From: Dermatophagoides farinae | Taxonomy: Eukaryota > Arthropoda > Arachnida > Sarcoptiformes > Pyroglyphidae | Direction: 5' to 3' | Assembly (NCBI RefSeq): GCF_024713945.1 | Contig: NC_134677.1 | Location: 5,025,001 to 5,089,000, forward strand | Length of the DNA: 64,000 nt | Part shown: positions 4,150-61,776 of the stretch, piece by piece | Position numbering within the stretch: position 1 is the first letter of the stretch | How the letters are laid out: every line of letters starts with the position of its first letter | Program-made: the position numbers and the translations under genes | The notes under the pieces: model-generated | Databases searched by the model: none | What the model saw: only the letters and a program-made list of their open reading frames with translations | Told to the model about the DNA's origin: nothing

Positions 4150-5166
4150 CTATATAGTAGTATTGAAAAAATATAAACAAACAATATCATGAATGAAATT
4201 GAAACAAAAAAAATTTCTCACAAACAAATGTCATGTCAATGTATGTGTTTTTCTCTCTATGATTTGGTTATCGAACAACATCACGGAAATAAATGTAAGA
4301 ACAAAAAATTTCGATGTTATCATTGTCTAAAAATTGAGTTTCAAAATTGACAATACAAGTATAATAAGACTATTATTTATATGGAATATTTTTCTTGTTT
4401 AGATTATATTTGTTCAATTCTTTTCATCATTGTTGTTGTCGTTTTCGCTTGTGTTTGTGTGTGTGTGTGCATATAAAGCAATGTCATCAATAGTCTCAAT
4501 CAATCCGGTCTATCTGTTTTACATGATGATGTCTCTTTCTTAATTTCCGATTCATGTCCACTCAATCAAACAAGCTGACGGTTACACACTGTAGAAAATA
4601 CACTCTCAATGTCGTTGATGTTTTAGTAGTTGTTGTTGTTATTCGTCATTGACAATGACGATAGCAACAACAAAGAAAGAGTAAGAATAAAAAAAAATCC
4701 AAAATCAGAATCTCAATCTCACATATAAACAAGCAGAAAAACGAAAAAAATGTCAGATATATCTCGATAATAAAAGAATAAAAATAAACGAAGTAACATT
4801 ACTTGAATGAACTTGGATTCTGTTGTCCTCCACTCTATCAAACTTGAATGCAATAAAATTCATGCTCTAATTATTTGAATGTTCATTTATATATCTATGC
4901 AATGAATAGTGGCCAATTGCTTGATTTCAATTTAATTCATTCATACAAATAAACGAATGAATGAATTGAATTGATTAACGTGATCGACATTCGTGGTAAA
5001 CATTTTTATAAAAACATATCAATATCATGTCATTATTATTATGATGAAGGAAATGAAAATTTATATAGAAAAACATAGAAAGAATTGGAAGCTTGTGGTG
5101 GGATAAATTTTGGAAAAAGAAGAAAGAGAGAGAAGGCCACCGACTGAACAATTCCGATATACTTAC
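4150..5166 (-). other. Receptor intron between TM1 and TM2 exons
   Basis: A 1,017-bp GT-AG intron (GTAAGT donor at 5166-5161, AG acceptor at 4151-4150). Phase 2: the junction codon CG|G gives Arg at the end of TM1. It holds a (GT)n run near 4450-4470 and a near-perfect hairpin at 4633-4673. No other coding sequence was seen. Confidence 0.85.
4633..4673. repeat. Hairpin / near-perfect palindrome in receptor intron
   Basis: The core TCGTCATTG-A-CAATGACGA (4643-4661) is a perfect 19-base palindrome around one base. It is extended by TTGTTGTT on the left (4633-4640) and AACAACAA on the right (4666-4673), with a small mismatch between. The central loop is too tight for a canonical miRNA precursor. 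Function unknown. Confidence 0.5.
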
Positions 5167-8100
5167 CGGAAGACAGCAATAATGACAAGAAGATTGCCAA
5201 ATATGGCCGAAAAAATTATGGTACCCAATATCAAAACCTTGAGCACAATAATCACAATGTCGACCCAATCATTGATCAATGGTTCAATCATATCATTACT
5301 ATCACTATTGATGATCATCATTGGTAATGAATTTGCAGTGGTTGTTGTTGTTATTGAAGCTACCGATGAAGTTGATAAATTCTTTGCAATCGAATCGATT
5401 GTTGTAGTAAACATTGCTGTGGCAGTGTCCATACTTGAATCTATCATATTTGATAATGATGGTAATATTGTCACCGCTGAATTAATGACTGATGATTGAT
5501 CATTACCAACAAGATGATTGTAGATAGTACCATTTGGTTTATGTAGTAAAAAATAATTATCACTATCATTAGTGAATGATCCCGGTAAATCAGTCGATTG
5601 TAAATTTGTTGGTATAATTGTTGTTGCTGTTGTTGTTTGATTAAGATAGGCAGTTGGTATAATACTTGCATTTAATGCTGCACGAAATAGTCGATCAATA
5701 ATAACTGATGGTAATGAACTCGATGATGATATTGGTAAATGTTTACGTTGTTTTTCATTATGATGATGATGATAGTGGTGATTTTTATTATGATGTAGAT
5801 TCAATAATGATGATTTAAAGAAAGAAGAATGATCATGATCACTTGTTGAAAAATCAGAATTTTTTGATTTGATGAGCATTTTTTGTGGTCGTTGCCATGA
5901 AGCGAAGGAATCTAAATTTTCATCATCGTCATTTAGAATGAATTTATTCATATTCACATCAATAATATCATCATAATTTTTATCATTATATAGAACATCA
6001 TTATCATCGCGAACAATAGCAGTTGATGATGATGGTGATGATGATTGAGATCGTCGTTCATTATTAGCCGTTATCATTATTGGCCGCATAACTGTACGCA
6101 TTAAACGTATTAAATGTCCATCATCATCTGAACGTATCATACTACCATTGCTTGCCATTATCATGGACGGTGAGAATTTACTGGTATCATCTTCTGGTAA
6201 ATGTATTACAGTGCCTTCATTTTCAATTTCAACATAATGACTAATATTGTTGTAATTTCTGGATGACTTGTCTGAATCAATTTCATCATCATTTAAATTC
6301 TGGTGGTTGTCATTATTATTATCCAAAATATCATCATCAAAATCAACATCACTGAAAACATCATCATTATAATCATTGTTGTCATCATAATCGGTATTTT
6401 TTATGAATGAAGTCATGGACGGCGATTGAAGTGGTTGATTCAAATAACGACGTGATGGTATTCTATGCGATGAAGACGATGATGAATATCGAAGTAAACG
6501 CTTAAATAACGATTTAGGTATCAAACTTGTGAACATATTCGATATGACACTATTATTTTTATCGATATTACTACTATCGTCGGGATTCACAACATTTTTT
6601 TGGCTTATCAAATTTTCACTTATCGTTGATGATATTGTAGGTTGCTTGGAAGCTACACTGATATTTGAAAGTTGAAAAATTTGACCAGAATTTAATGACA
6701 AAGATGATGTATAAAAATCAGGATGATAGTAATGATGATGAGGATGGAAATCATTTTTTGAAAAAGGAGAAAAAGTAGTAGAAGAATCACCCGTTATAAT
6801 ATTTGAAGCTAAAGAAGTTATTTGCGATGATGTTGAAGAATTGACAATATTGAGCGATATTCTTTGAATCCGGACGTTTGGAGTAATAGAAGATGGAGAA
6901 GATTGAGTTAAAAATAATTCTTTGTCACTGATGTCACTGTTGATGCTATTATTATCATCATCATCATCGCCAGTAACATCATCATCGTCATCATCGTCAT
7001 CATAAGGAATTTCAACATCAAAATTATATTCAACATCATCATAATCATCATCACCGATGAATGTTTTGGCCATAGGTAATGAAAATGGTGACGATAATGT
7101 TTTCATGTCATCCATCATTCTTGGCATTGTCAGCGACATTGAACTATTTGATGTTGGTGTTGATGATAATTTGAATGATAAAGATTTCAAAGTAGGTTTC
7201 AATTGATTTGCATTAATCAATTTTGATAACGATGATTTTTTATTATGATATTGTTGATTATAATTGTGTTTATTATGATAATTTTGTTGGTCATATTCAT
7301 GATGATGTTTTCGAACAAACACTAATGAATTTGAATTATGTTTATTATGATTATTCTCATTATTATTATTCAAGCAATTTATATATTCATCATCTCTATT
7401 GTTTAGATCGATATCATTATCAATATTGTTTTTCACGATTAGCTCTGAATTCTGTTTATTATTATTCATTATTGATGAAGATAAAATTTTCGGATTACTA
7501 TGATGAACATAGTCTCTATTGAATGGCGAATATGGATATGATGGTTGTTCAATAGTTGTGGATTTAGTAGATTTTTCACTTTTCATTTTCACTCGTTTCC
7601 ATTTCGAAATCATTTTTGTTTCTGTTTTTGTTACTCTCACTAAATTTGCCTCTACATTTGTATCTATCATTTTCACTGGATTCGTTGCCGACATATCGTT
7701 ATCGACAACCGATTTTGTTGCTGTTGTCGTCGTCGTCATAGTCGTCATCATCGCTGTCGTTGCATCAATGATTGAAGCATTTTGATTCTCTTTGATTTCA
7801 TTCATTGTCGACGACGATGTTGTTGTTGTTGTTGCATTCAACAATGATGTTCTAGTATCAGCAGTAGTTTTATCCATCATTTTATGATTTGTTGAATTAA
7901 ATGTTTTGGCCATTGATGGTATTAATAACAACGACAACGATGATGATGATGATATTGAATTTGGCATTGCTAAAATAGTCGTTAATGTTGAGGCTGTTGA
8001 TGATGTTGAGATTCTTGATTTCGACAATTTTTGAATTAATGTCGATGTCAATGTTGATGAACAGGCGAATGGTGAAGTAAAGAATGTGATAATTAATATG

Positions 8101-10757
8101 AATATTAATAAATAGAACCAAACATGTTCAAAGTTTGATGATGATGAGCATGGACGTTGTATTGATGATTTTAATGCTGGACGTTTGAATGTTTCGAATG
8201 AAAAATAATTTTTTGATGTTGATAATGATGATGAAGAAAAAGAGTTTTGATGTTTTTGGTTATTGCCATCAAATCGGCATACAGTTGGATTATTTTTATT
8301 AAAATTATGATCAATGGAAGCAAACGTCAATGTCGAAGATGATGTATTCGATGAAGATGATGGATTATGATGAATATTTCGGTTAGTTTCGTTATCTGTT
8401 GCGAACAATTTATATTCAGTTTTCGTTGTGGTTAAATTTGAAATCGTTGTCGATTTTAAATTTAATGAAGATGGAGATGGTGATAATAATTGAACAGACG
8501 ATGATGAAGTTTTATTCACATTAATCCCATTGAATATATTCGATGATTCAAGAAATGTCAAATATTTTGATGTTGAAGAATGTGGTTGTAAATAGCATCG
8601 GCTTTCATTGATGATGATTTTAGCTGTTGCCTTTGGCTTTAATTCGAATTTCAAATGTTGTTTCAATGTATGAAACGTGATTAGATTGAATTTTCTATTT
8701 TTCTCATGTCCATCATCACCATGAGAATCATCATTTTGATTAGTATTATGTGTATAATAGTAGTGAAAATAATAATCATCTTTTGATAATGTGATTGTTT
8801 TGACAAACGTACCACCGTCGTTATTTTTGTGGTTTAGATCATCAAATTCATCATTAAAATTATTATTTAGATTTTTAATATAGAATTTATTTCTAAAATT
8901 AACACAAAAACTATTATTATTTGTTGATTGCACTGATGTTTTCAGTTGTTTATGTTGGTTATTCTTATCAACACAATAATCATTCTGAATGTAAACAGTT
9001 TTTATGTTAAAAACAGGGAATTCCAGTAATTGTAATTTCAGAAACAATGGCGCTTCATCATCCTCCACATCATCACCTATGGTCACGAAAATTGAATTGT
9101 CATAATCAAAAAACTTTTCACCAAACACACAATCACAATAACCATCACGATGACAATGACAATAATTATTGAAAAATAATAATATATTTGATGATTTATT
9201 ATCGATTATTTCATTGTTGTCATTATCATCATCATCATCATCATCGCTGATGTAAAATTGTTTATTATATTTAAAATTATCCTCATCAACATAATCATCA
9301 TCATCATCATGATTAATGTTGTTTATCGAAGTTAATGATGATTGTAAATATTTTCTTCGTCGTCTATGTTGACGATAGTGGAGACAAAATTTTTCTATTT
9401 TTCTTTCTAATCGTTGATGTTGTTGTTGTTGTTGTTGACAAAATTCAAAATCATTTCCATGGTCATAGTTGTTTAAATCAATTTGATTATTATGATGAGA
9501 ATTTAGATGGCCAAATTGATTTGGTAGAAATTCTTGAGGCTGTCTGAAATAATCATAATTATTATTATTCTTATCATTAATGTTGATAATTATTTTGAAT
9601 CCTATCATGATAAAATCAACAGGATGACAATTTTGAAGAGATTTGCCATCATGATCATAATCAACGGAATTATCATTTAGTAGCCATTGATCGTCATCAC
9701 AAATTTCATCATTATCCCTGGCAAAATTTCTCTGACATTTTGAAACGTTCGTTGTTGTCGCCGTCGTTGTTAGTTTAGTGATTAATGATGACCAATAAAA
9801 CGTCTGATCAAATTGAATGGGCGCCAAATTTAATTCATCATAATAAATTGAATCATTTGAATTTTTGTTTTGTTTTTGTCGTTCAATTTTTGTTAAATGA
9901 ACATTATGGCAGTCCTCAAGTAATTGTATCCTATACGATTTTGATAATATAATACTACAATATCGATGATAATGATGATGATTCAGTTGATCGTATGAAA
10001 TCGTTGATTTTTTCATACAACACCGACAATAATGGAAATTTATGCCGTTACCGGCAACGACACTGAATCGAATCTGATCATGATCATTAAGATCATCATC
10101 ATCAACATAATAATCATGATCGTCTTGATCATGATCATCGTCATTCAAGTAACTGAAATCATATTTGGCGTCGGCGTCATTGACGGCGCTAAACTGATTC
10201 TGTTGTTTATGGTCGTAGCCGTATTTGTTGTGGTGGCCGTAGTGGCAGCTTTGGTTTTGATGTCGCTGGATACCGAAATCTAATGTAACTTTATCGTATT
10301 CGCCGCTACCATCATCATTATTATTATTGGAACTTTCATTACTATGATCCATGCTTCTTCTTTTTCGTTTTCGTTTGGTTTGTCGAAAATGGTACGAACA
10401 TTTATGCTTCGAATGCAGTGAATTCATAGTCACTGGTATGATACTTTGATTATATGGATTCATTGTGGGTGTATACAACGTTGACGACAATAATGATGTA
10501 TGGTTAATAGTAGAAGCATCGGGATGAAAATCGCCGTGATTCTTTAGATTTTTTTTCCATATATTTTGGCTTTCCGTTGACGGTACCGTTACTTTTGTTG
10601 GCCTAATAATAATTCCACTTTTGTGCATGATTTCATCCATTTCATGAAGAATCGTCCTTCGATGCTTTTGATAATGATGATGATGATGAATCGAGTTTGT
10701 CTTTGTACTATCATTATTATTCATTTGTTGTTGATGATCATTGTCCATAATTATCAT
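5167..10757 (-). CDS. Octopamine receptor, beta-adrenergic-like (Octbeta2R-type), exon 1: giant N-terminal region plus TM1
   Basis: This is the first coding exon of an amine G-protein-coupled receptor. The frame is open for 1,864 codons and ends in a TM1-like helix (about residues 1833-1860) with the family GN pair (G1854-N1855) and the sequence LLVIIAVFR. It then meets a consensus donor, GTAAGT, at 5166-5161. The last two bases (CG) join the first G of exon 2 to make Arg1864. An in-frame stop lies at 10892-10890 and the Met at 10757 is the first after it, so I chose that start. The region is rich in Asp, Asn, Ser, Thr and His. It has a basic cluster near residues 127-134, a Gln run near 440, Asp runs near 1249-1267, and a hydrophobic stretch at 879-898 ending in FACSS. 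Usual octopamine receptors have N-termini of tens to a few hundred residues. The frame is certain; translation of all of it is not. Confidence 0.75.
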
Positions 10758-13700
10758 TACATTAGATGAAAATAATGTGTGACAATGAAGAATGCCAATA
10801 GGTTTTCTATGTAAAAAATAATTTTTATTATACGATTCTTCGTTCGTTTGGATTTTGGTTAATGATTGATGTTGAATTTTAAAATGTATTCAATCTATAT
10901 TATTTTAGGACAATAAAAGAGAAAAAATGAAAAAAAGTGTAAAAAATAATTAGTATAAATCAGAATGAAATAAGAATAGTTTTTCATGTAAATGAATTTT
11001 TTTTTGCTTTGAATATTCGAATTCCTGACGATCATTCGTCAAAATATTTTTCTCTCAATCTCATCCTGTTAGTTGTATTAGTTTATATTCCTCATCATCA
11101 TTACCAATTGTATTATAGCATACATTGAAGTAAGTGTATAATTTTGGGAAAAAAAGTATTCGATGCTGATGATGATGTTCCTAGATGTATTATTGATGAA
11201 TATTATTTATTCTTTTTCCGTTATCAGGTCACATGGCCTTTTATTCATATGATTCTTATATATACTGAAAAAATTATTCAGTTTAGTGAATATTTGCTCA
11301 TTAAAATCTTGCATTCATTGTTTTGAATTTTCAAGAATTTGCTCATTTTTTTATGATTTATTTTCTGAATATCATCATCAGTAATAAAAGCTTCATTGAG
11401 TAATAATAATCATCATTATTATACAAATGTGTGGAAACTTAAAAAATGAAAATACAATATGCACATTTTTCATTCATCAATGGTTGATTCTCATTCACTG
11501 TATTTTTTTCAGAAGCCTTTAGATATGATGAAATCACAAAGATGAACGTCATTTCTTTTGATGTTTTGATCTTTGCGTTCAACGTATGTGGGTGAATAAA
11601 AGGTGCGTGTGTGTTGATGAAGGGATCCTAGGGATTTCTAGTTGTCTAGAATTTTTTCTAGCTACATAACACAATAGCAGATAAAAAGATGAAACAATTC
11701 ATTTCACTTCATTTTTTTCTGATAAAACTATCGTACTTTGAAATAATAAAAGTAAACGAATAAATTGTATTGCGATAGAAATTTTGCATATTGGAATGAT
11801 TGGCAAACAAACTGAATCAATAGCTGTGTAAAAAAATATAAAAAAAATAAATTCCTATATTTGATTCTATTATGAATACATGAACAGTATGAACCGTGTG
11901 AGCTAAAGATGAGTGAAATGTACAAAAGAAAACATAAAAAGAGGATAAATAACTGTAAAAAAATAAACGAATCAAAAAAAAAAATAATAATAATAATCCA
12001 TGAATCGACATTGTCAGTAATGATGATGATAATGATCGCCACGATGACGACCACTATTTGTAAATCATGCCATATTGAGCATTACTACTCCAGATACCAA
12101 AAACAAAACAAAAAAAAAAAAAATAAAGAATTAAAGAATTATATAAGCTTCATTCGATTAGTTGTTATACTTGGTTTTGTCGATCGGCGTTTATATTGTA
12201 CATTTTCAAATGTTGCCATTGTTGTTTAGAGATTTTTTCTATTTTATTTTTTGGTTTTGATCTTATCTGCTAAATCTATAATCTATTTAACTCATCAATT
12301 TTGTCTCTGAGGGTGTATAGAAAATTATCCCCAAATATGATTGATGGATTTTCGATACAATTTTTTTTGTTGGTTAAAGCTTATCGTTTATTATTGGTTT
12401 GTTGGTTGGATATATTTTTGGCTTTTCTCAGAATTTAATGTTTTTAGACATAATATATTCATGAACCATCGCTTTGAACGAAATTCTATTATTCTCTGTT
12501 GAATGAATGTGGAAAAGTCAGAATTTTTTCCGTTCATTGTAATTTATTATACAAAAAGTAAAAATACATTCTTGTTTGCCATCAGATCTTGGTTTCCTCG
12601 TCCATAGTCACGATGAAAACACGAAAAAAAAATATTTTGATTGTTTCTGATTTGATTTCAATGATCATTGATAGATTTTCGAAACAAAATTATTGATTTT
12701 ATAACGTTTGATCAGTTTGGCTGTTTTTCTTATTATTTTTGTCAATATATGTTAGATTTTATTCGATTCGATTTCTGGTTCAATGATTGATTTTTTTCCT
12801 ATTTCATTTGTCCACATGTTTTAGATCTATTTTTATGTTGATATCGTAATGACACATCGATACTATCAATATATTTATACACTACAGTTGCTTATTATTA
12901 CGAAAATTGAAAATATATTGAAAAATTTATTAAAAAAACCAAACTGTCATTCGATAATGTTATCTTGATTGTTAATTTGATTTGTGTAAATATTGACATA
13001 GTCGATAATAATAATAATACACACACACACACACATAAACACACGAACAAATCGACATTAGAAAAAACCTTTGGAGTGTATAAAAAGATCATTTAAATGG
13101 GGTAGAAAAGAGTATCTATCTACATTAGTTTATTCTTGTTGGAGAATATCAATTTCTTAATAATGATCATTATTTTCTTTGAACACTTGGTCATGAAAAT
13201 AAACACCAACGTCTATGATTATCATATGTTTAATGCAAATGATATCAAGTTTTGTTTTGTTTATGAAATAAACAAAAAAAAACGTGTGCATATACAAGTG
13301 ATTGGTTTATTCAATGAATTAAACTAATGATAAATTATCATCTTCAATCAATGGAAAGAAAAATAAAAATAAAAACAATAATATTGAATATATAATGCTG
13401 TGAAAAACGTATCAACATCATCAATTAAATTTGATTGATTGCAATGAATAGATTGTTTCATTTATCAATCAATCACTTGAATAATCGAATAAATAAATAA
13501 ATGATTTTGGATAAAACTCATTCAATGCTTCCATCGATTGATTGAATGATAAAGTTTATTTTTTTTTCATGTATATAATTTGGTTCAGTTTCCTTTTTTT
13601 TCACTGTTTATAATTTATGGTAAAAAAAACTTTAGAAAAATCCACGATACAATATATATTGATATTTATTTTGTTATGAACGACAACGGAAGCGATCAAA

Positions 13701-16338: not shown

Positions 16339-19300
16339 CGAAAGAGAGTTTCATATTTATATTTATTTATATACATTTCTTACTATGTTGCTATGATAGT
16401 TTGTTTCTTTTCTTGTATTATATTGTTGTTTTGCTATTTGTAAATATTGGTATAATATTGGCAATATGAATCCATTTGTTTGGATGGCATCTTTTTTTTT
16501 CATTTATTACATTTATTATATTTTGACATACTTTGATCTTTGTTTTTTTTTGTTGTATACCATATATATATGTGTGGTGAATATATGTGCAAGAATACAA
16601 TATTGTATCCATTTGTCAAAGAATATGAGTGATCAATATATTGGATATTGTTTGTTTAATATATACAGTTTCTTTTTTTTCATCTGATCTTTGTTCATTG
16701 TTATTATTATTGTCGTGATTCTTCATTGTTTTTTTGTTGTTGTTGTTGTTGTTTGATTATTTTAGTTCTATATTAACATTTTTATTGTGAGTTATATTTA
16801 TAATATAGAAACTAAATAATTGTCATTTTTTTCTGTTTTCAGCTAAAATATTAGTTTCAGGAATGAATGAAAAAAAATACTACTGTTAAGAATAAGAAAA
16901 ATCTATTCTTTAATATTTTGACTTGTTAGCAAAAAATAATAATATTTGCCGATCAAATCTAGTGATTGTATGCTATATAGTCATTAACGATTTGTTTAGC
17001 TTCATTTATCGGTATTTGAGATATATAAAACAATAACGATGATCATAATCATAATAATTATGATATTTTCTCAATCTTTTTTTTCTGGGAATATTCCTCT
17101 ACAAAACATTGTCGTAGCTAATGATTTGGCTTAGATATTTTTTTTTTGTTTTGTTTCTTGTTTCGGTATGTCCTTGGGATTATCATTTCATTCTATAAGC
17201 TTGTATTCACAAAATCTTTAATGAATAAAAGAATCGAAAAAAAGAAGAAGACTACTTCTACTACCATCATCAACAATATTATAAGATGGTAATAAATGAG
17301 TGAGATCTTGTTCGATTCGATGTGAACTTTCTTTCAATGATTATAATAATAATAATAATAATAATGAAAATGATGATGATGATGATGATCAAGGATTTAG
17401 AAGAAAAATTGCTCAATATTTATTGGCTCAAGTATAATCCGTATAGCAAAAAAAAGAAAGTGAGAGAGAGAGAAAGAGAAAAATTCATTGAATGTTATGC
17501 ACCATAATGATTATCAAGGGAATATTACAAAATAAACCTTTTGGAAATTGATTATGTCTCAATTCAAAAACTCACTTGTATTTTCCATTATTATTGTTTC
17601 AATATGCGTTGATATTAAGCTAAAATTTTCATGAGATGTGCCATATAAAAATAAAACAGGAAGAAACGAAAAAAAACATGCGTTGGCAATTAATTTAATT
17701 CAAAGTTTCGTTTTTTCATTGTTTCGTTTTTCAGTTGGTTGGCGTTGTATTCATGTTATTTTAATATTTATGCTGCTATTTCGAGTCGATTTTAGAATTT
17801 TTTCCTGTATCATTCATATAAATTCTTGTATAATTTGACAATTTTAATGATGTGTCGTTTTCTTTATTTTTTTCAAATTTTATCACCATATCATTTCAAA
17901 ATTGGTGGTGAATATGTTGACAATTTCATCACATAGACACAAACAGACACACAAACACACACACACACAAACACTTACAATAAAAACTTCAGTAAACACA
18001 CAGAAACAACTTATAAAGAATCAGCCAGAATAAACGTGAAAATGAAAACAATATTCGAATCGACCCCGTAGAGAATTGACTTGATTATGTTTTGATTTTT
18101 TTTTTTTTTTGGTTTGATGATGTATGATGTTCAAAACAAAGATCGAGTAAATAGGTGGATTTTTGATTTTAAAATGAAATTGGTATTGAATTTTTTGCTT
18201 TTCATTGCAAAGAGGGAGAGAGAAAGATTAAAGAATATATATTGAAATAAAAACACTTGAATTGAAAATTGAGCTAAATAAATCAATTGAAAGATGAATG
18301 AATGAATGAATTAAATGAGTGGGAAAAAAAAGTGAAGAAAAAAATCAAACACAACACTTTCATGATGATGTTGATCATTATTATTATCATTATCATCATC
18401 TCTTGAGGAATTTAAACAGAAAAAAAAAGTTTTAGAAAAGGAAATTCTTCATTTTTTCTTTCTGTATGTTTTTGCTTGATTCGTTTATATATTTTTGGCC
18501 CAAATCCTGTCCTGATGAATAGATAGTAAGTGAGAGAAAGAAAAAAAAAATTCAAAAACATGAAGACATAAGAATTAATTTAATGATAATGATGAGGATG
18601 ACTATAAGAAACAAAAACGATCTTGAAAATGAGAAAAATGAGGATGTATGTATGTTGTTGTTGTTGTTGTCGTCGTTGTTGTTGAGCAAATTAAATATAA
18701 GTGTGTGTGTATGTGTGTTATAATTTTTGGCTTTTTGTAATTTGTGTGTTCGTGCATATATGCATATATATCATCTTTATGATGATGATTATCGAAATCA
18801 TCATCAGCATCATGGTGTTTGTAATGATCATCATAATTTTGATCATGGCAACAACGCTATAATTCTGGCATCAAACATTATCTTTCTTACGGCCAAAATT
18901 CTGTCGTTTGTTGGAAAAAAATATATCAATGTTGATATTGTTGCCATATTTATAATATTGCTATTATCAATATTGTATCATATTGATGATAGTAGTCCAT
19001 ACGCTTTTTTACTTGTCATTTCAAAGAAAAGAATAATCAATGTGTTGTTTGTTTGTTTGTTTGTTTTAATTAATTTTCACTGTAAGACGTTTAGCTATAC
19101 TTTTTGTAATAGCGAAAAAATGATAATAATGTTAATTTGAAACAAGATTTTTTTTTCTTCGATAAAAAAGATGAAAAATATATAAAATTTTGGTGAAAAT
19201 AATTTTTTTTTTGTTATTTGATTTCTCTCAAGTGAATGAATAGCGTCAAAAAACGAATGATGTTCTCAATATATGACTGGATGGATGGATGAATGGATGA

Positions 19301-55605: not shown

Positions 55606-55693
55606 AGTGTTATTTTGTTAAAATTTATCAAAGTTTGTTTCGAATTCATGATTGTTTGATTGATAGTGTTAATTAATAAATACGTCGAAAAAA

Positions 55694-57400
55694 ATGTTGC
55701 CATATTTTTCAACCGATGATGGTTTTTCATCTTCATTAAATCCTGTGCCACCAATTGTTAATAATCATATCGACAAGATTAATATTCCTGAATCGTTTTT
55801 CATCACAGATTTCTACAAAAATAAAACGATATTCATTACTGGTTCAACTGGATTCATTGGTAAAGTTTTACTTGAAAAAATTTTACGTCAATTTCCTTCG
55901 GTTGGCAAAATTTATGTGCTGATCCGCTCGAAACAGTCTGAATCATGTCATGAGCGTTTAGCCAAAATGTTATCGACTTCACTGTTGTTCAAAAGTCACC
56001 AGGATAATATTGATTTAATCAAAGCCATTGATGGTGATATTACAGCTAAAGATCTGGGACTTTCCGAAGGTGATCGTCAACGATTGATTGAAGAAGTAGA
56101 TGTTGTTTTTCATTCAGCCGCTTCAATCCAATTCACAGGAGAATTGGGAAAATTCATAAAACAAAATATTCAAGGCACCGATTCAGTGATGCGTTTATGT
56201 CAGGATATGAAACATGTACAATCAATTGTTCACGTATCTACGGCATATGGAAATTGTCATATGAACGAAGTCAAAGAAAAAATCTATCCGGTTGTTAACG
56301 ATCAAGATGTTGAAGTCTACATCAAACAACTCATGGAAAAATATGCCGATTATGATCTATGTGAAGGTCATTCGGCCCTTCAAAACCGTCCAAATCCATA
56401 TACTCTTTCCAAATCAATTGCAGAATGGCTTATAAACGAAAAATATCAATCAACCTTACCCATCATTATATGTCGTCCATCAATCGTAATCTGTTCGCTT
56501 AAAGAACCGTTTCCTGGATGGTGTGATACAATCAATGGTGTATCAGGCTCGTTCATATTGTTAGGTTTGGGAATAGTACAAAAATTCATTGTTGACAAAA
56601 CAAAAACACCTGATCTGATTCCGGTTGATATGGTAGCAAATTCATTGATCGTTTGCGGGGCATATCGAGCATCGTCACATTATTCACCAGAAAGAAATGT
56701 TGTTCACATTACCACAAGTACAGTGAATCCAGTTTCTTGGAGTAAATTATTCGATTTAGGCATTAAATATGAAAACCGTATTCCTTCTATGAAACAGGTT
56801 CGTCCGATATCAAGGGATTATTCTAACAATTATGCAACATTATTCGATAAGATATGCTATAAATTCCATCAAATCATCGATCATTTATTATTTGCCATGA
56901 TATTCGATCTGATATGTATGATAATGGGCCATAAACCATTTATGATAAAAATAATGCAGCGTTTTCACAATTCAATGTATGAGATGAAATTTTTCTCCTT
57001 ACGACAATGGAATTTTGAGCATAAAAATCTACCATACATCTACAAATTGGTGAATAAAAAAGAGCGACCATTATTCAATTGTGATGTGACGACGATTGAT
57101 TGGGAAGATCACGCTGGCAACATGTGTTACGGGATACGTAAATATCTGCTCAACGACCCCGATTCAAATTATGAACAGGCTCGTCAAAGACGATACCGAA
57201 TCTATCTCGGATTCCGTCTATTTACCGTATTTAAATATTTCTTTTTTTATTTAATAAGCAAAAAATATTTGCTCGAAACAGTCTTAGGTGTTACATTCTA
57301 TGGTCTATCATTATCAATCATCGATTTGGCCACCTATTCATATTTGATTGCCTGTGTATTCACCGCATTCAAAACGTTTAACAAACCAAAATCACATTAG
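55694..57400 (+). CDS. Fatty acyl-CoA reductase (alcohol-forming)
   Basis: A single uninterrupted frame of 568 codons. The enzyme family reduces long-chain acyl-CoA to fatty alcohol with two NADPH, for wax, ether-lipid or cuticular hydrocarbon precursors, usually at the peroxisome or ER membrane. An N-terminal Rossmann domain (about 41-300) carries the dinucleotide motif TGSTGFIG (49-56), STAY (182-185) and the catalytic Tyr236-Lys240 pair in NPYTLSK, as in extended short-chain dehydrogenases. A FAR_C/Sterile domain follows (about 370-480, ending near DWEDHAGNMCYGIRKYLL). Hydrophobic segments near the C-terminus (about 490-555) are likely membrane anchors. Length is slightly above the usual 500-550 because of an N-terminal extension of about 40 residues. 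The Met at 55694 is the first in frame before the motif. The family is large in arthropods and the paralogue cannot be named. Confidence 0.95.
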   Translation: MLPYFSTDDGFSSSLNPVPPIVNNHIDKINIPESFFITDFYKNKTIFITGSTGFIGKVLLEKILRQFPSVGKIYVLIRSKQSESCHERLAKMLSTSLLFKSHQDNIDLIKAIDGDITAKDLGLSEGDRQRLIEEVDVVFHSAASIQFTGELGKFIKQNIQGTDSVMRLCQDMKHVQSIVHVSTAYGNCHMNEVKEKIYPVVNDQDVEVYIKQLMEKYADYDLCEGHSALQNRPNPYTLSKSIAEWLINEKYQSTLPIIICRPSIVICSLKEPFPGWCDTINGVSGSFILLGLGIVQKFIVDKTKTPDLIPVDMVANSLIVCGAYRASSHYSPERNVVHITTSTVNPVSWSKLFDLGIKYENRIPSMKQVRPISRDYSNNYATLFDKICYKFHQIIDHLLFAMIFDLICMIMGHKPFMIKIMQRFHNSMYEMKFFSLRQWNFEHKNLPYIYKLVNKKERPLFNCDVTTIDWEDHAGNMCYGIRKYLLNDPDSNYEQARQRRYRIYLGFRLFTVFKYFFFYLISKKYLLETVLGVTFYGLSLSIIDLATYSYLIACVFTAFKTFNKPKSH

Positions 57401-57855: not shown

Positions 57856-58929
57856 ATGTCTGCTAATTATGCTAGTGGACTTTCTGAATATAAGAATAAA
57901 GGAACCTGCGGTACAAAAGAGGTATGTAACAATTTATACAGTAGTTTAATGTTGTTCATTTTTAAAAAATTTACAATATAGTTGATCGATAGCGATAAAA
58001 AATTGGCCCGAAATACAAAAATCTTGGCAGAATGGATTCGTGAATCAAAACATTGTGTATTATTTTGTGGTGCTGGAATTAGTACTGCAGCTGGTATTCC
58101 CGATTTTCGGTATGTGCATGACATGTTTCCAAATCATGTTGATCATATTTTTAAAAATTAAAGTGGCCCGAATGGTATATGGACATTGGAAAAACGTGGG
58201 CAAAAACCGGATGAATCAAAGGTGAAATCATTTGATCAATGTATTCCAACATTTTCACATCGTGCCATCATCACTATGATCAACAAGGGCTTCGTTAAAC
58301 ATGTTGTTAGCCAAAATATTGATGGGTTATTTTTAAAGGCTGATATTGATCGTGAAAATCTATCCGAATTACATGGAAACTATTTCGTAGATGAGTGTAT
58401 CGAATGTCATAGTCGTTTTATTCGCAATCGTCCAAGTCCGACAATGGGCTGTAAATTCACTGGTGATAAATGTGGCCAATGTGATGGCCTCATTCACGAT
58501 ACAATTTTGGATTGGGAACAAGAACTGCCTGATGATGAATTCGATCGTGCACAAATCGAATCTGAAAAATGTGATCTAGCCATTTGTTTAGGCACATCAT
58601 TACAAATAGAACCAGCCAATTTGTTGCCTTTAGAAGTGCTTAAAAAATCAGAAATTCAGTCTGAAAACACTGATGTTTATGATCCGAATGATGATCGTTT
58701 GAATAAATTGGTCATTATTAATCTTCAACGAACCAAATTCGATCGTCACGCTGACCTTATCATACATCATTATGTCGATAAAGTGATGGAAATAATTTGC
58801 CAACAATTAATGATTCAAGTTGGTCCTTATGAATCGGCATTAGATCCAACAAAATCCAGTCATGATCTTATACCATGGAATCGAAAAGATTTTAAACCAA
58901 CTAACAAATCTAGGAATGAATCATCATAA
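57856..58929 (+). CDS. Sirt6: NAD-dependent protein deacylase, SIRT6 type (class IV sirtuin), three exons
   Basis: Exons 57856-57921, 57982-58109 and 58164-58929 join in frame to give 319 residues. The introns are 60 and 54 bp (donors GTATGT and GTATGT, acceptors ATAG and AAAG). Exon 1 encodes MSANYASGLSEYKNKG, very close to the SIRT6 N-terminus. NAD-binding GAGIS (52-56) and PDFRGP (R65), QNIDGL (115-120), catalytic His135 in LHG, GTSLQI and NLQRTKFDRHADL are all present. Zinc ligands appear to be C143, C146, C168 and C171. SIRT6 removes acetyl and long-chain acyl groups from histone H3 and acts in chromatin, DNA repair and metabolic control. The protein is a little shorter than human SIRT6 (355) because the Pro-rich tail is reduced to a short basic end. 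The zinc loop is also short. A start further upstream is not supported. Confidence 0.93.
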
Positions 58930-59124: not shown

Positions 59125-61776
59125 TTATTTCGACAATGGTCCATGCATATTATTTGCTCCATGATTTAGCTGATAGATTTTTGTGATGACAATATCACCA
59201 GTCGATAATGTCTGCGTGCCAATATCACATTTTGGCAACGATGATGATGATGACGATGATGATTGTGGTGATTGTGCTGGATGTGGCTCCAATGATAATA
59301 TTGGTGACAATGATGTTTGTCCATTCATTTTGTTTGCAGCAGATGATTTTCGATGACAATGACAATGGCAACATTGTTGTGATTCTAGCCCAATGCCTGA
59401 CGAATTGAATTCGCCCGAATGATCATATTCTCGACTGGATGGAGATAAACTGGATGTCTGTTTCTCCGAATAATAATAATCATCCATAAGGACACGATTT
59501 TCTGTATCAATATAACATTCGACATCAGAATCACCAACATCCGAATCACTTTCTCCAACACTTTTATTGTTTTCTTCACCATTAATTCCATTATGTTTGC
59601 GATTTTCAAAACGTTTCAATTTTTTCGCTACATTCATCGGACCTTCGATTTTATTACGAATTTCTTCAGTAATATCAATATACCTAAATAGAGAAAGAAT
59701 CATTCAGGTTCATTTAAAATACTATAAAACTCACCTTAAAAGTCGTATTTCTCGATTACTCAGAACAATTTTTTTCTTATCATTATTAAACAATTTCAAT
59801 TTCAGATCAGTCAATTCCAATTCAAATTTTCGCTGTCGTTTTAATTGTTTTATTTCATCGATATTTATGTAAGCGAAAACCGATTCATATACAAGTTGTT
59901 TGAAAAGTGGTTCATATTCTGTACGAATTTGACCACTTAAATTTTCATAAACAGTTGGATATAATGCATAAACTTCGGTAACAGCAAACTGTATCATTTC
60001 ATCGATTAGTGGACGATTTTTCCAATATTTATAATCTTTTCTATATATCTTATGTAGCCGATCTTTTTGTTTGGGATTCAAATTTAAGCCACCATAAACG
60101 TTACACAATGTATAGAATGAAATATATTTGGTCGGTTTATATGCTGGTCGTCCAGTAGATTGTTGCTGTATAATCAGATGTGCTACCTGAGTATCGAATA
60201 CATTTTTCAATGTAATTCCAAAACTTCGATAAAGTGAAACAGAATTCGTACGAACATCATGGCCAACTTTTACAATATCTTCAGATTCCAATAATCTTTT
60301 AAGGCCATTTTGTATCATGGTAGGATTTAAAAAAACATCGAACAAAACAATTTGAATGCTACTATTATTAGATCTATTGACAGTTCGTTTATATGATATT
60401 TGTATCAATGTAACTTCACCGCTCGTTCCCAGATTGACACCTTCAACATCAAATCCAATAACAGGACAATTTCCACCAATGGAAGAAGCAAAAATTTCAT
60501 CAACAATCATTTCACAATCTTTATTCTTGACGACAATTCGTGGTTTGATTAATTGTAAATCTATGCTATCATATTGATTGGAGTCATTCTGATTATCTAT
60601 CGATAATGGTTCATCATTGTTGTTTGGAAAATGGCGATAATTTTGATGATCACTTGCTAACAAAGATGATGTTGAGGGCGAATTATGGCATCCTTGTGAG
60701 ACAATTTTAATGATTTGAGATCGAATTCGTTGATTAACAGCTGATTGTTGTGATGAGGATGATGTTCTTGCCATTCGACCATTGGAAGACGAAGATGATG
60801 AAGAAGTGGCTACATTCTGTTGCTGCACTTTTCGGCTAGGTGATTGCTGTTGAATTTGTGATTGACTAGAATATTGATCGGGTTCAAGTTGTATCTGCTG
60901 TTTTTTATCACGTAGAACGGTTAACCGTTCATTAGTCAATGAGACCATCTGACCTTGTACGAGAAATATCCTTGAATTCATATGTAAAAAGGTTATTAAA
61001 TCGGTTGGCACTTTGATAAAATCATTCCATAAAGCTGGTAGTTGCTCCTTGGATTGCATAGCATTATATAATAGGTCGATAGAAATTTTATTTGAATAAG
61101 TTTCAGTCAGGCTATAGACCTTATCTTCAAGATCTTGAACCAATTGTTGCATCAAATATGGATCATGTTGAATTTCCTCAGGCATACGTCTTAATTGGTT
61201 ATTATGACCATCTTGTTCTAGCTGATCAAGTACGGATTTGAGTACTACATAATCATCACGAACAACAAAAATGGATGAATATTTTTCTAGAAATTCACGA
61301 AATTCTTTAACATTTTGGCCTGAAACATGACGAATTTCGGATGATGCTTGAGACCTATGACCAAATAAACTTTTCAAAGGTACTTCAGCTATGCCATATG
61401 AGTTAAGTTTTTCCGTAAAGAATTCGGTTGTTTCTTTTGTATAATCACGCACTGCCGATCCATCATGATCGCTAATCAATGGTGTGAGTAAAACCTATAT
61501 AAATTCAAGAATACAAGTGTTATCAGAATAAATTTCATCAATATTTAAAAAGGAACTTACAGTTTCACCATCGATAGTGAATAATGATGGGAATTTGAGC
61601 AGAAATTTTTTCAAACCAGCTTGGCTACCACCAGCAATTTGTCGCATTTCTTTTGTAAAACCTTTGGCTCCAAATTGACATGACAAATCATGTAGGGTTC
61701 GTGATTGACCTTTGCCGATCAGATGATCCAGAAAAAACATCAATGTTTGATCACGAATGACATCGAAATCTGCCAT
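59125..61776 (-). CDS. egl: Egalitarian homologue: BicD/dynein mRNA-transport adaptor with a 3'-5' exonuclease-like domain, three exons
   Basis: Exons 61776-61561, 61494-59735 and 59683-59125 join in frame to 844 residues. The introns are 66 and 51 bp (donors GTAAGT and GTGAGT, both acceptors ending TAG). The first ATG (61776, AATATGG context) is the start; the frame extends upstream only through a TTG. The N-terminus HDLSCQFGAKGFTKEMRQIA is characteristic of Egalitarian. Three related winged-helix-like units span about 1-75, 88-158 and 185-258. A Ser/Gln-rich linker follows, then an RNase D-like domain (about 410-590), a basic segment and an acidic/Ser-rich tail. The tail carries DIGTQT (812-817), which fits a dynein light-chain (LC8) site. 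In Drosophila the protein links localising mRNAs to Bicaudal-D and dynein. The exonuclease centre keeps D421 and E423 but has N489, F575 and E579 where D, Y and D are expected, so catalysis is doubtful. Confidence 0.9.

Follow-up and report, generated by a model that had tools for sequence, protein, structure and literature searches.

A beta-type octopamine receptor gene of Dermatophagoides farinae with a predicted N-terminal extension of about 1,830 residues and an additional hydrophobic segment

Several amine receptors of arthropods have long N-terminal regions, and some of them have an additional hydrophobic segment, TM0, ahead of the usual transmembrane (TM) segments. In the titles, abstract beginnings and passages on which all comparisons with published work in this text are based, the N-terminus measures 532 residues, with 17 sequons, in Calliphora 5-HT2alpha, and 276 residues in Calliphora 5-HT7, which also has a TM0 (PMC3493529); in Drosophila 5-HT2A it measures 286 residues (PMC5425475). 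Eight hydrophobic segments, TM0 included, are described for the 5-HT7 receptors of Calliphora, Drosophila and Aedes, for Drosophila TyrR and for a cattle-tick tyramine/octopamine-like receptor, and TM0 has been suggested to be a signal sequence (PMC3493529). Truncation of the long N-termini alters expression or affinity. Full-length Calliphora 5-HT2alpha could not be expressed until its N-terminus of 532 residues had been shortened by 468, and in this truncated form its sensitivity was roughly one tenth of that of the gland (PMC3493529); deletion of the Drosophila 5-HT2A N-terminus reportedly raises serotonin affinity (PMC5425475, citing Colas 1997). In Drosophila Oct-beta2R, 9 of 10 positively selected sites lie in the N-terminus (PMC12869069). 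Here we describe an octopamine receptor gene of the mite Dermatophagoides farinae, located on the minus strand of a 64,000-nucleotide stretch (contig NC_134677.1 of assembly GCF_024713945.1, positions 5,025,001 to 5,089,000; hereafter the window), in which some 1,830 open codons precede TM1 (Table 1). A group-2 allergen locus of the genome agrees with Der f 2 (1ahk) at 113 of 114 residues, more closely than with Der p 2, as expected of D. farinae or a near twin.

The kind of architecture is therefore already known from the long N-termini and TM0 of insect amine receptors, and the mite receptor looks like an extreme form of it. An earlier sequence-only reading of the locus had stated that amine receptors normally have short N-termini, which is too general for arthropods, given the 276 to 532 residues found in insects, although the tick orthologue is short. 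As in the TM0-bearing receptors, a hydrophobic segment is found within the N-terminal region of the mite frame and brings the total to eight. In Calliphora 5-HT7, however, the entire N-terminus has 276 residues, and a leader of 880 codons ahead of TM0 is a mite feature that is not described there; the N-termini of insect 5-HT2alpha and 5-HT2A have less than one third of the mite length, and these are serotonin, not octopamine, receptors. Neither this length nor an 880-codon leader before TM0 is described in the titles, abstract beginnings and passages of the amine-receptor literature. By title or abstract beginning, the octopamine-receptor literature on D. farinae deals with essential oils or nematicidal compounds, and mite-specific literature searches on the topic found no papers.

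The frame that carries TM1 runs for 1,908 codons from stop to stop and enters TM1 without interruption. Its earliest in-frame Met is codon 45 and the next is codon 48, which lies in the more favourable context for initiation under the Kozak rule; with TM1 beginning near codon 1876, the predicted N-terminal extension has about 1,830 residues. The exon ends with TTCCG followed by a GTAAGT donor, the acceptor of exon 2 reads ..tatatag followed by GCATCATCG, and the two exons join in phase as F-R-H-H-R-L-R, splices here being placed by consensus and homology. The 5.6-kb uninterrupted TM1 frame and the in-phase splice to TM2-TM5 that the sequence-only reading had proposed were thus recovered at the same coordinates. 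TM6 and TM7 lie on a third exon that starts at C1:5014947, 13.5 kb downstream and beyond the window.

The gene is supported as that of a beta-type octopamine receptor of the Oct-beta2R type with a real TM1 exon, in agreement with the octopamine-type assignment made before. Exon 2 matches PF00001 (E 9.3e-40) and contains the DRY motif, and the TM6-TM7 exon (locus L004) contains the NPIIY motif. The joined receptor has as its best match among solved structures the octopamine b2 receptor 9m55 (445 bits, E 9.5e-133), ahead of a beta-1 adrenergic receptor (225 bits), so that the Oct-beta2R assignment is one by comparison with solved structures only, not by a tree. This nearest solved chain, which aligns with the mite receptor over TM1-TM5 and TM6-TM7, is from a tick, presumably Ixodes scapularis, to which we take the 'is' in its name to refer. 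In the paper on 9m55 the receptor is named is-oct-beta2R and its DRY arginine is numbered R128 (3.50), and the word 'truncated' does not occur (PMC12696353). In our alignment the same arginine is chain position 159, and the two numbers together indicate that the native tick receptor has about 22 residues ahead of the TM1 region, compared with some 1,830 open codons in the mite gene.

An open frame of this size in the mite is not expected by chance. The remaining five frames have 118 to 308 stops each across the same stretch. At the lowest of their stop rates (6.2%), the probability of 1,864 open codons is near 10^-52, and that of codons 45-922 alone (878 codons) is about 10^-20; the longest open frame in 1,000 order-2 Markov copies of the strand has 167 codons. 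Within 264 kb of genome, made up of the window and twenty 10-kb stretches, all of contig C1, the octopamine frame is the longest, the second longest having 1,007 codons. The view that chance or low-complexity drift has left the upstream frame open, without any protein product, finds some backing in the existence of further long open frames rich in Asp, Asn, Ser and His in this genome, but against a probability of about 10^-52, reached even at the lowest other-frame stop rate, and a Markov maximum of 167 codons we hold it to be very improbable. The sequence-only reading was right that the frame has been kept open, and its being kept open as protein-coding sequence is supported.

Coding statistics differ along the extension, which we divide into an Asp/Asn/His-rich part A, a part B, the hydrophobic segment TM0 and a Ser/Thr-rich part C (Table 1). 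With codon log-odds trained on 32 long open frames and z scores measured against stop-free simulated noncoding sequence, part C reaches 13.3, part A 6.6 and part B 6.4, compared with 0.9 for the 44 codons ahead of Met 45 and 6.0-16.4 for ten training frames, scored in sample. All seven 120-codon windows of part C exceed the 5th percentile of the training windows (0.049). The reading frame of the exon outscores the other five in 15 of 19 windows; for training windows, scored in sample, the corresponding figure is 102 of 113. Furthermore, triplet runs that could be read as stops lie in a non-stop phase in 8/8 cases in parts A and B (P 0.04) and 11/11 in part C (P 0.01), as opposed to 7/12 in a 9-kb flank read in an arbitrary frame, the expectation being two thirds throughout; this phase bias lends modest support to coding and is weak if taken alone. 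From these statistics, coding is well supported for part C; the case for parts A and B, where the codon signal is weaker, comes mainly from the absence of stops.

These results bear on a much shorter receptor, which would start at a Met between codons 1857 and 1867, 8 to 18 residues before the Trp of TM1, and would leave the upstream frame as leader RNA or as another product. Such a form would resemble the tick receptor, Met 1857 and Met 1867 are in place, and YAG sites with 11/19 pyrimidines lie just upstream of Met 1857, at 5476 and 5359. We nevertheless think it improbable, since part C scores as highly in codon use as the long exons and continues in frame into TM1, and a leader RNA made of parts A to C would carry 144 next-frame ATGs (73 in A and B, 71 in C).

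The earlier description of the extension as rich in Asp, Asn, Ser, Thr and His and mostly disordered applies to a real stretch; as a picture of one uniform stretch, it misses TM0 and the change of composition there. The mean hydropathy of TM0 is 2.24 over 19 residues, and in this frame TM1 alone is higher. Before TM0, the 878 codons of parts A and B have 21 Cys, 16% Ser+Thr and 13% Asp+Glu; after it, the 928 codons of part C have 25% Ser+Thr and 4% Pro and are nearly free of Cys. TM0 consequently divides what had been proposed to be one tethered ectodomain, and only the 928 codons after TM0 are natural candidates for an outside location. The term 'mucin-like', also proposed, has weak backing in these codons. 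Mucins are recognized by Pro/Thr/Ser-rich repeats; the sole tandem array listed in the frame is a 3-base array at 6954-7053, Ser+Thr and Pro are at the levels just given, and part C showed no enrichment of sequons, which could have marked it as an outer domain. The next frame over part B alone contains 41 ATGs, compared with none in frame. In single-sequence AlphaFold models, made with no alignment, the mean predicted local distance difference test score (pLDDT) is 30.9 for codons 45-922 and 32.4 for codons 917-1908; values above 50 are confined to 6 residues in the former and, in the latter, to TM0, TM1 and one five-residue stretch, so that these models say little beyond a predicted helical TM0 and TM1.

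No relatives of the extension were found. Pfam gave no family at E <= 1 for 1,864 residues, with no GAIN/GPS or known ectodomain, the PDB gave no match at E <= 0.01 for 1,828 residues, and a search of Rfam with the extension or its surroundings gave nothing for the extension. An adhesion-type GPCR (G protein-coupled receptor) is not supported by the Pfam and PDB results, in keeping with the earlier statement that no known adhesion-type domain is present. A protein search of the 62.4-Mb genome (22 contigs; E <= 0.001), in which 13 of 13 first-look candidates were scored, returned the extension's own locus and no second copy. A DNA search with 601 bases of the octopamine exon found, apart from itself, a 56-base place at C6:1646464-1646519 that is 83% identical and perhaps of low complexity.

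Other receptors of the same genome place the octopamine receptor at the extreme of a series. A PF00001 search of the genome gave 151 matches; among the matches listed, which are a part of these, exon 2 of the octopamine receptor is present and its TM1 exon is not, and a single match (C5:11294-11920) lies in an open frame of more than 1,000 codons, namely 1,490. We examined 16 of the 151 loci, picked by score or long open frame and not at random, as single exons and by match coordinates. The open codons before the start of the match were 581, 325, 235, 233, 208, 192, 172, 170, 162, 118, 116, 70, 69, 64, 43 and 17; two of these values are not comparable with the others, 233 belonging to a receptor that we read as leucine-rich-repeat type (L027) and 170 to a match that starts past TM1 (L029). 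The value of 581 belongs to L024 (C5:10801-17000), a muscarinic-type receptor by its PDB matches (M3, E 1.8e-70). Its exon begins with a leader of 334 codons that is rich in Asp, Asn and His (12 Cys, 10% Ser+Thr, codon z = 5.0), followed by a hydrophobic segment starting at a Met (MFYRLMFIFCLLIIINIFI), a Ser/Thr-rich part (36%) that is free of Cys, and TM1. The layout in one exon is like that of the octopamine gene; the 581 codons before the TM1 match and the Met right at the hydrophobic segment are unlike it, and the octopamine extension has no match with L024 at E <= 0.001. At two further loci, L025 and L039, a signal-peptide-like segment follows a Met 124 and 307 residues ahead of the TM1 match, and just 17 and 6 open codons precede the first Met. 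A class-A TM1 receptor exon was also seen at L033 (C1:8408301-8410000), where the frame starts MIVMMMMMMMMVMIM and an ATG run is read as Met.

L024, L025 and L039, in which a signal-peptide-like segment comes soon after a Met and 124-307 residues ahead of the TM1 match, suggest a second form of the octopamine receptor. An upstream exon or promoter would supply a Met shortly before TM0, TM0 would be a cleaved signal peptide, and the outer part would be made without the leader, parts A and B belonging to another isoform or to leader RNA. The shift in composition at TM0 (Cys 21 before and 1 after; Ser+Thr 16% before and 25% after) and the weaker codon signal of parts A and B are consistent with this. 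TM0 is followed by A-C-S|S, a signal-peptide cleavage pattern. The exon itself has no in-frame Met between codon 428 and codon 975, and a form starting at TM0 therefore needs a Met from an upstream exon. One candidate exists in our splice-site scans, which are crude consensus counts: an ATG at 17588 opens a stub of four codons and one base that ends at a GTGAGT donor (17575), and the phase of this stub fits a CCAG acceptor (8176) located 20 codons ahead of TM0. That acceptor is weak, however, with 10/19 pyrimidines against 13 for the exon-2 acceptor, and none of the YAG sites in codons 428-925 reaches 13/19, with nine sites reaching at least 9. Over the whole of 5165-10950 we counted 85 YAG sites, 16 of them with at least 11/19 pyrimidines and two with 13 (6657 and 6462, within part C); since the exon-2 acceptor itself scores 13/19, internal sites may serve as acceptors. 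The donor is one of two GTRAGT sites in the 12 kb from 8 to 20 kb of the minus strand (17978 and 17575, the latter after the four-codon Met stub), and its phase would fit by chance one time in three. Given the weak acceptor and this phase chance, the mini-exon is a lead and not a result. Moreover, the 878 open codons of parts A and B, with a probability of about 10^-20, would need a reason of their own, for example another isoform. On balance, we consider this form possible but doubtful.

We favour, at a rough probability of 0.46, a single continuous protein with a cytosolic A+B leader, TM0 as signal, part C outside and eight hydrophobic segments. Translation would most likely start at Met 10757 or 10748, and the acidic, low-complexity leader of 880 residues would be made first, in the cytosol. 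TM0 would then engage the translocon of the endoplasmic reticulum (ER), acting either as a signal anchor or as a cleaved signal sequence, about 930 Ser/Thr-rich and nearly Cys-free residues would be passed outside by forward translocation, and TM1 would stop translocation in the normal GPCR orientation, while parts A and B would remain cytosolic or be removed. In a receptor with no signal peptide, TM1 must draw the N-terminus backwards through the membrane. The 117-residue N-tail of CB1 already impedes such reverse translocation (PMC7304349), and in the alpha1D receptor an ER retention signal lies within an N-terminus of 95 residues, which is cleaved (PMC7190626). By these precedents TM1 alone is unlikely to bring a tail as long as 930 or 1,830 residues across, and export of the 930 residues should depend on a signal further upstream, such as TM0; it is most likely TM0 that sends the Ser/Thr-rich part outside. 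The outer part may serve as a flexible and acidic stalk, perhaps glycosylated, that adjusts delivery of the receptor to the surface and access of the ligand, a function suggested by the long N-termini of other amine receptors.

Several observations weigh against the continuous eight-segment protein. In the tick orthologue TM1 is preceded by about 22 residues, and the mite locus has weak acceptors as well as a candidate upstream mini-exon of compatible phase. In parts A and B, four of the seven 120-codon windows fall under the 5th percentile of the long-exon windows (0.049), the other three being over it, and the scores of wrong-frame open reading frames (ORFs) inside long frames (n=36, mean -0.08, sd 0.20) extend into the range of parts A and B, so that parts A and B are inseparable from wrong-frame ORFs by codon use alone; the four windows in which the reading frame of the exon is not the best all fall in codons 1-600. 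In-frame Met is absent for 546 codons (429-974, window 7968-9605, minus strand), a run found in 0 of 20,000 permutations; the longest elsewhere are 183 in four other low-complexity frames and 179 in the L024 leader. Part C has fewer N-glycosylation sequons than shuffled copies (15 versus 24.8 +- 4.1). Finally, the charges flanking TM0 have no N-inside bias, with one Lys or Arg before and two after within 15 residues, and four before and three after within 30.

Table 1. Positions of the features of the octopamine receptor gene in the window, and of the L024 receptor exon on its own contig
Feature	Position	Strand	Remarks
Stop-to-stop open frame, TM1 exon	5163..10889	-	1,908 codons; exon end 5167
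Part A, codons 45-428, Asp/Asn/His-rich, 10 Cys; Mets 10757, 10748	9606..10757	-	
Part B, codons 429-922, Asn/Ser/Asp/Phe-rich, 11 Cys, no Met	8124..9605	-	
Hydrophobic segment TM0, codons 925-943, FYLLIFILIITFFTSPFAC	8061..8117	-	signal peptide or signal anchor, predicted
Part C, codons 945-1872, Ser/Thr/Asn/Asp-rich, 1 Cys, 15 sequons, net charge -33; predicted outside	5274..8057	-	
Met 1857, start of the possible short form	5319..5321	-	18 residues ahead of TM1 Trp
TM1, codons about 1876-1898	5196..5264	-	hydropathy and structure match
Last exon base 5167 and donor GTAAGT	5161..5167	-	consensus
Exon 2, TM2-TM5 and initial portion of the third intracellular loop	3420..4149	-	terminal CAG, then GTAAGT
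Candidate mini-exon, ATG and 13 coding bases	17570..17588	-	consensus matches only
L024 receptor exon, open frame of 1,490 codons	L024:494-2863 = C5:11294-13663	-	

Elsewhere in the window, the ORFs 55673-57397 (+), 58162-58926 (+) and 59737-61494 (-) match male-sterility/fatty acyl-CoA reductase domains (NAD_binding_4, Sterile); SIR2; and an Egalitarian winged helix with a 3'-5' exonuclease.

If translated as predicted, the N-terminal region of the mite receptor would exceed three times the length of the longest one described in the passages considered, which has 532 residues. A broader proposal, which we put forward as rather unlikely, is that at least two amine-class receptors of this mite, octopamine beta and muscarinic, have eight segments, in which a large acidic domain in the cytosol is followed by a signal anchor and then by a long Ser/Thr-rich loop on the outside that leads to TM1, so that the receptor has both its ends in the cytosol; if true, this would be a GPCR design with a second cytosolic domain. 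A layout common to two receptors of one genome would provide a clean test of membrane threading by an internal signal segment. In Varroa, the acaricide amitraz acts on octopamine receptors (PMC8313232), and for this reason it is important, both for annotation and for the design of expression constructs, to know the true start of the mite Oct-beta2R.

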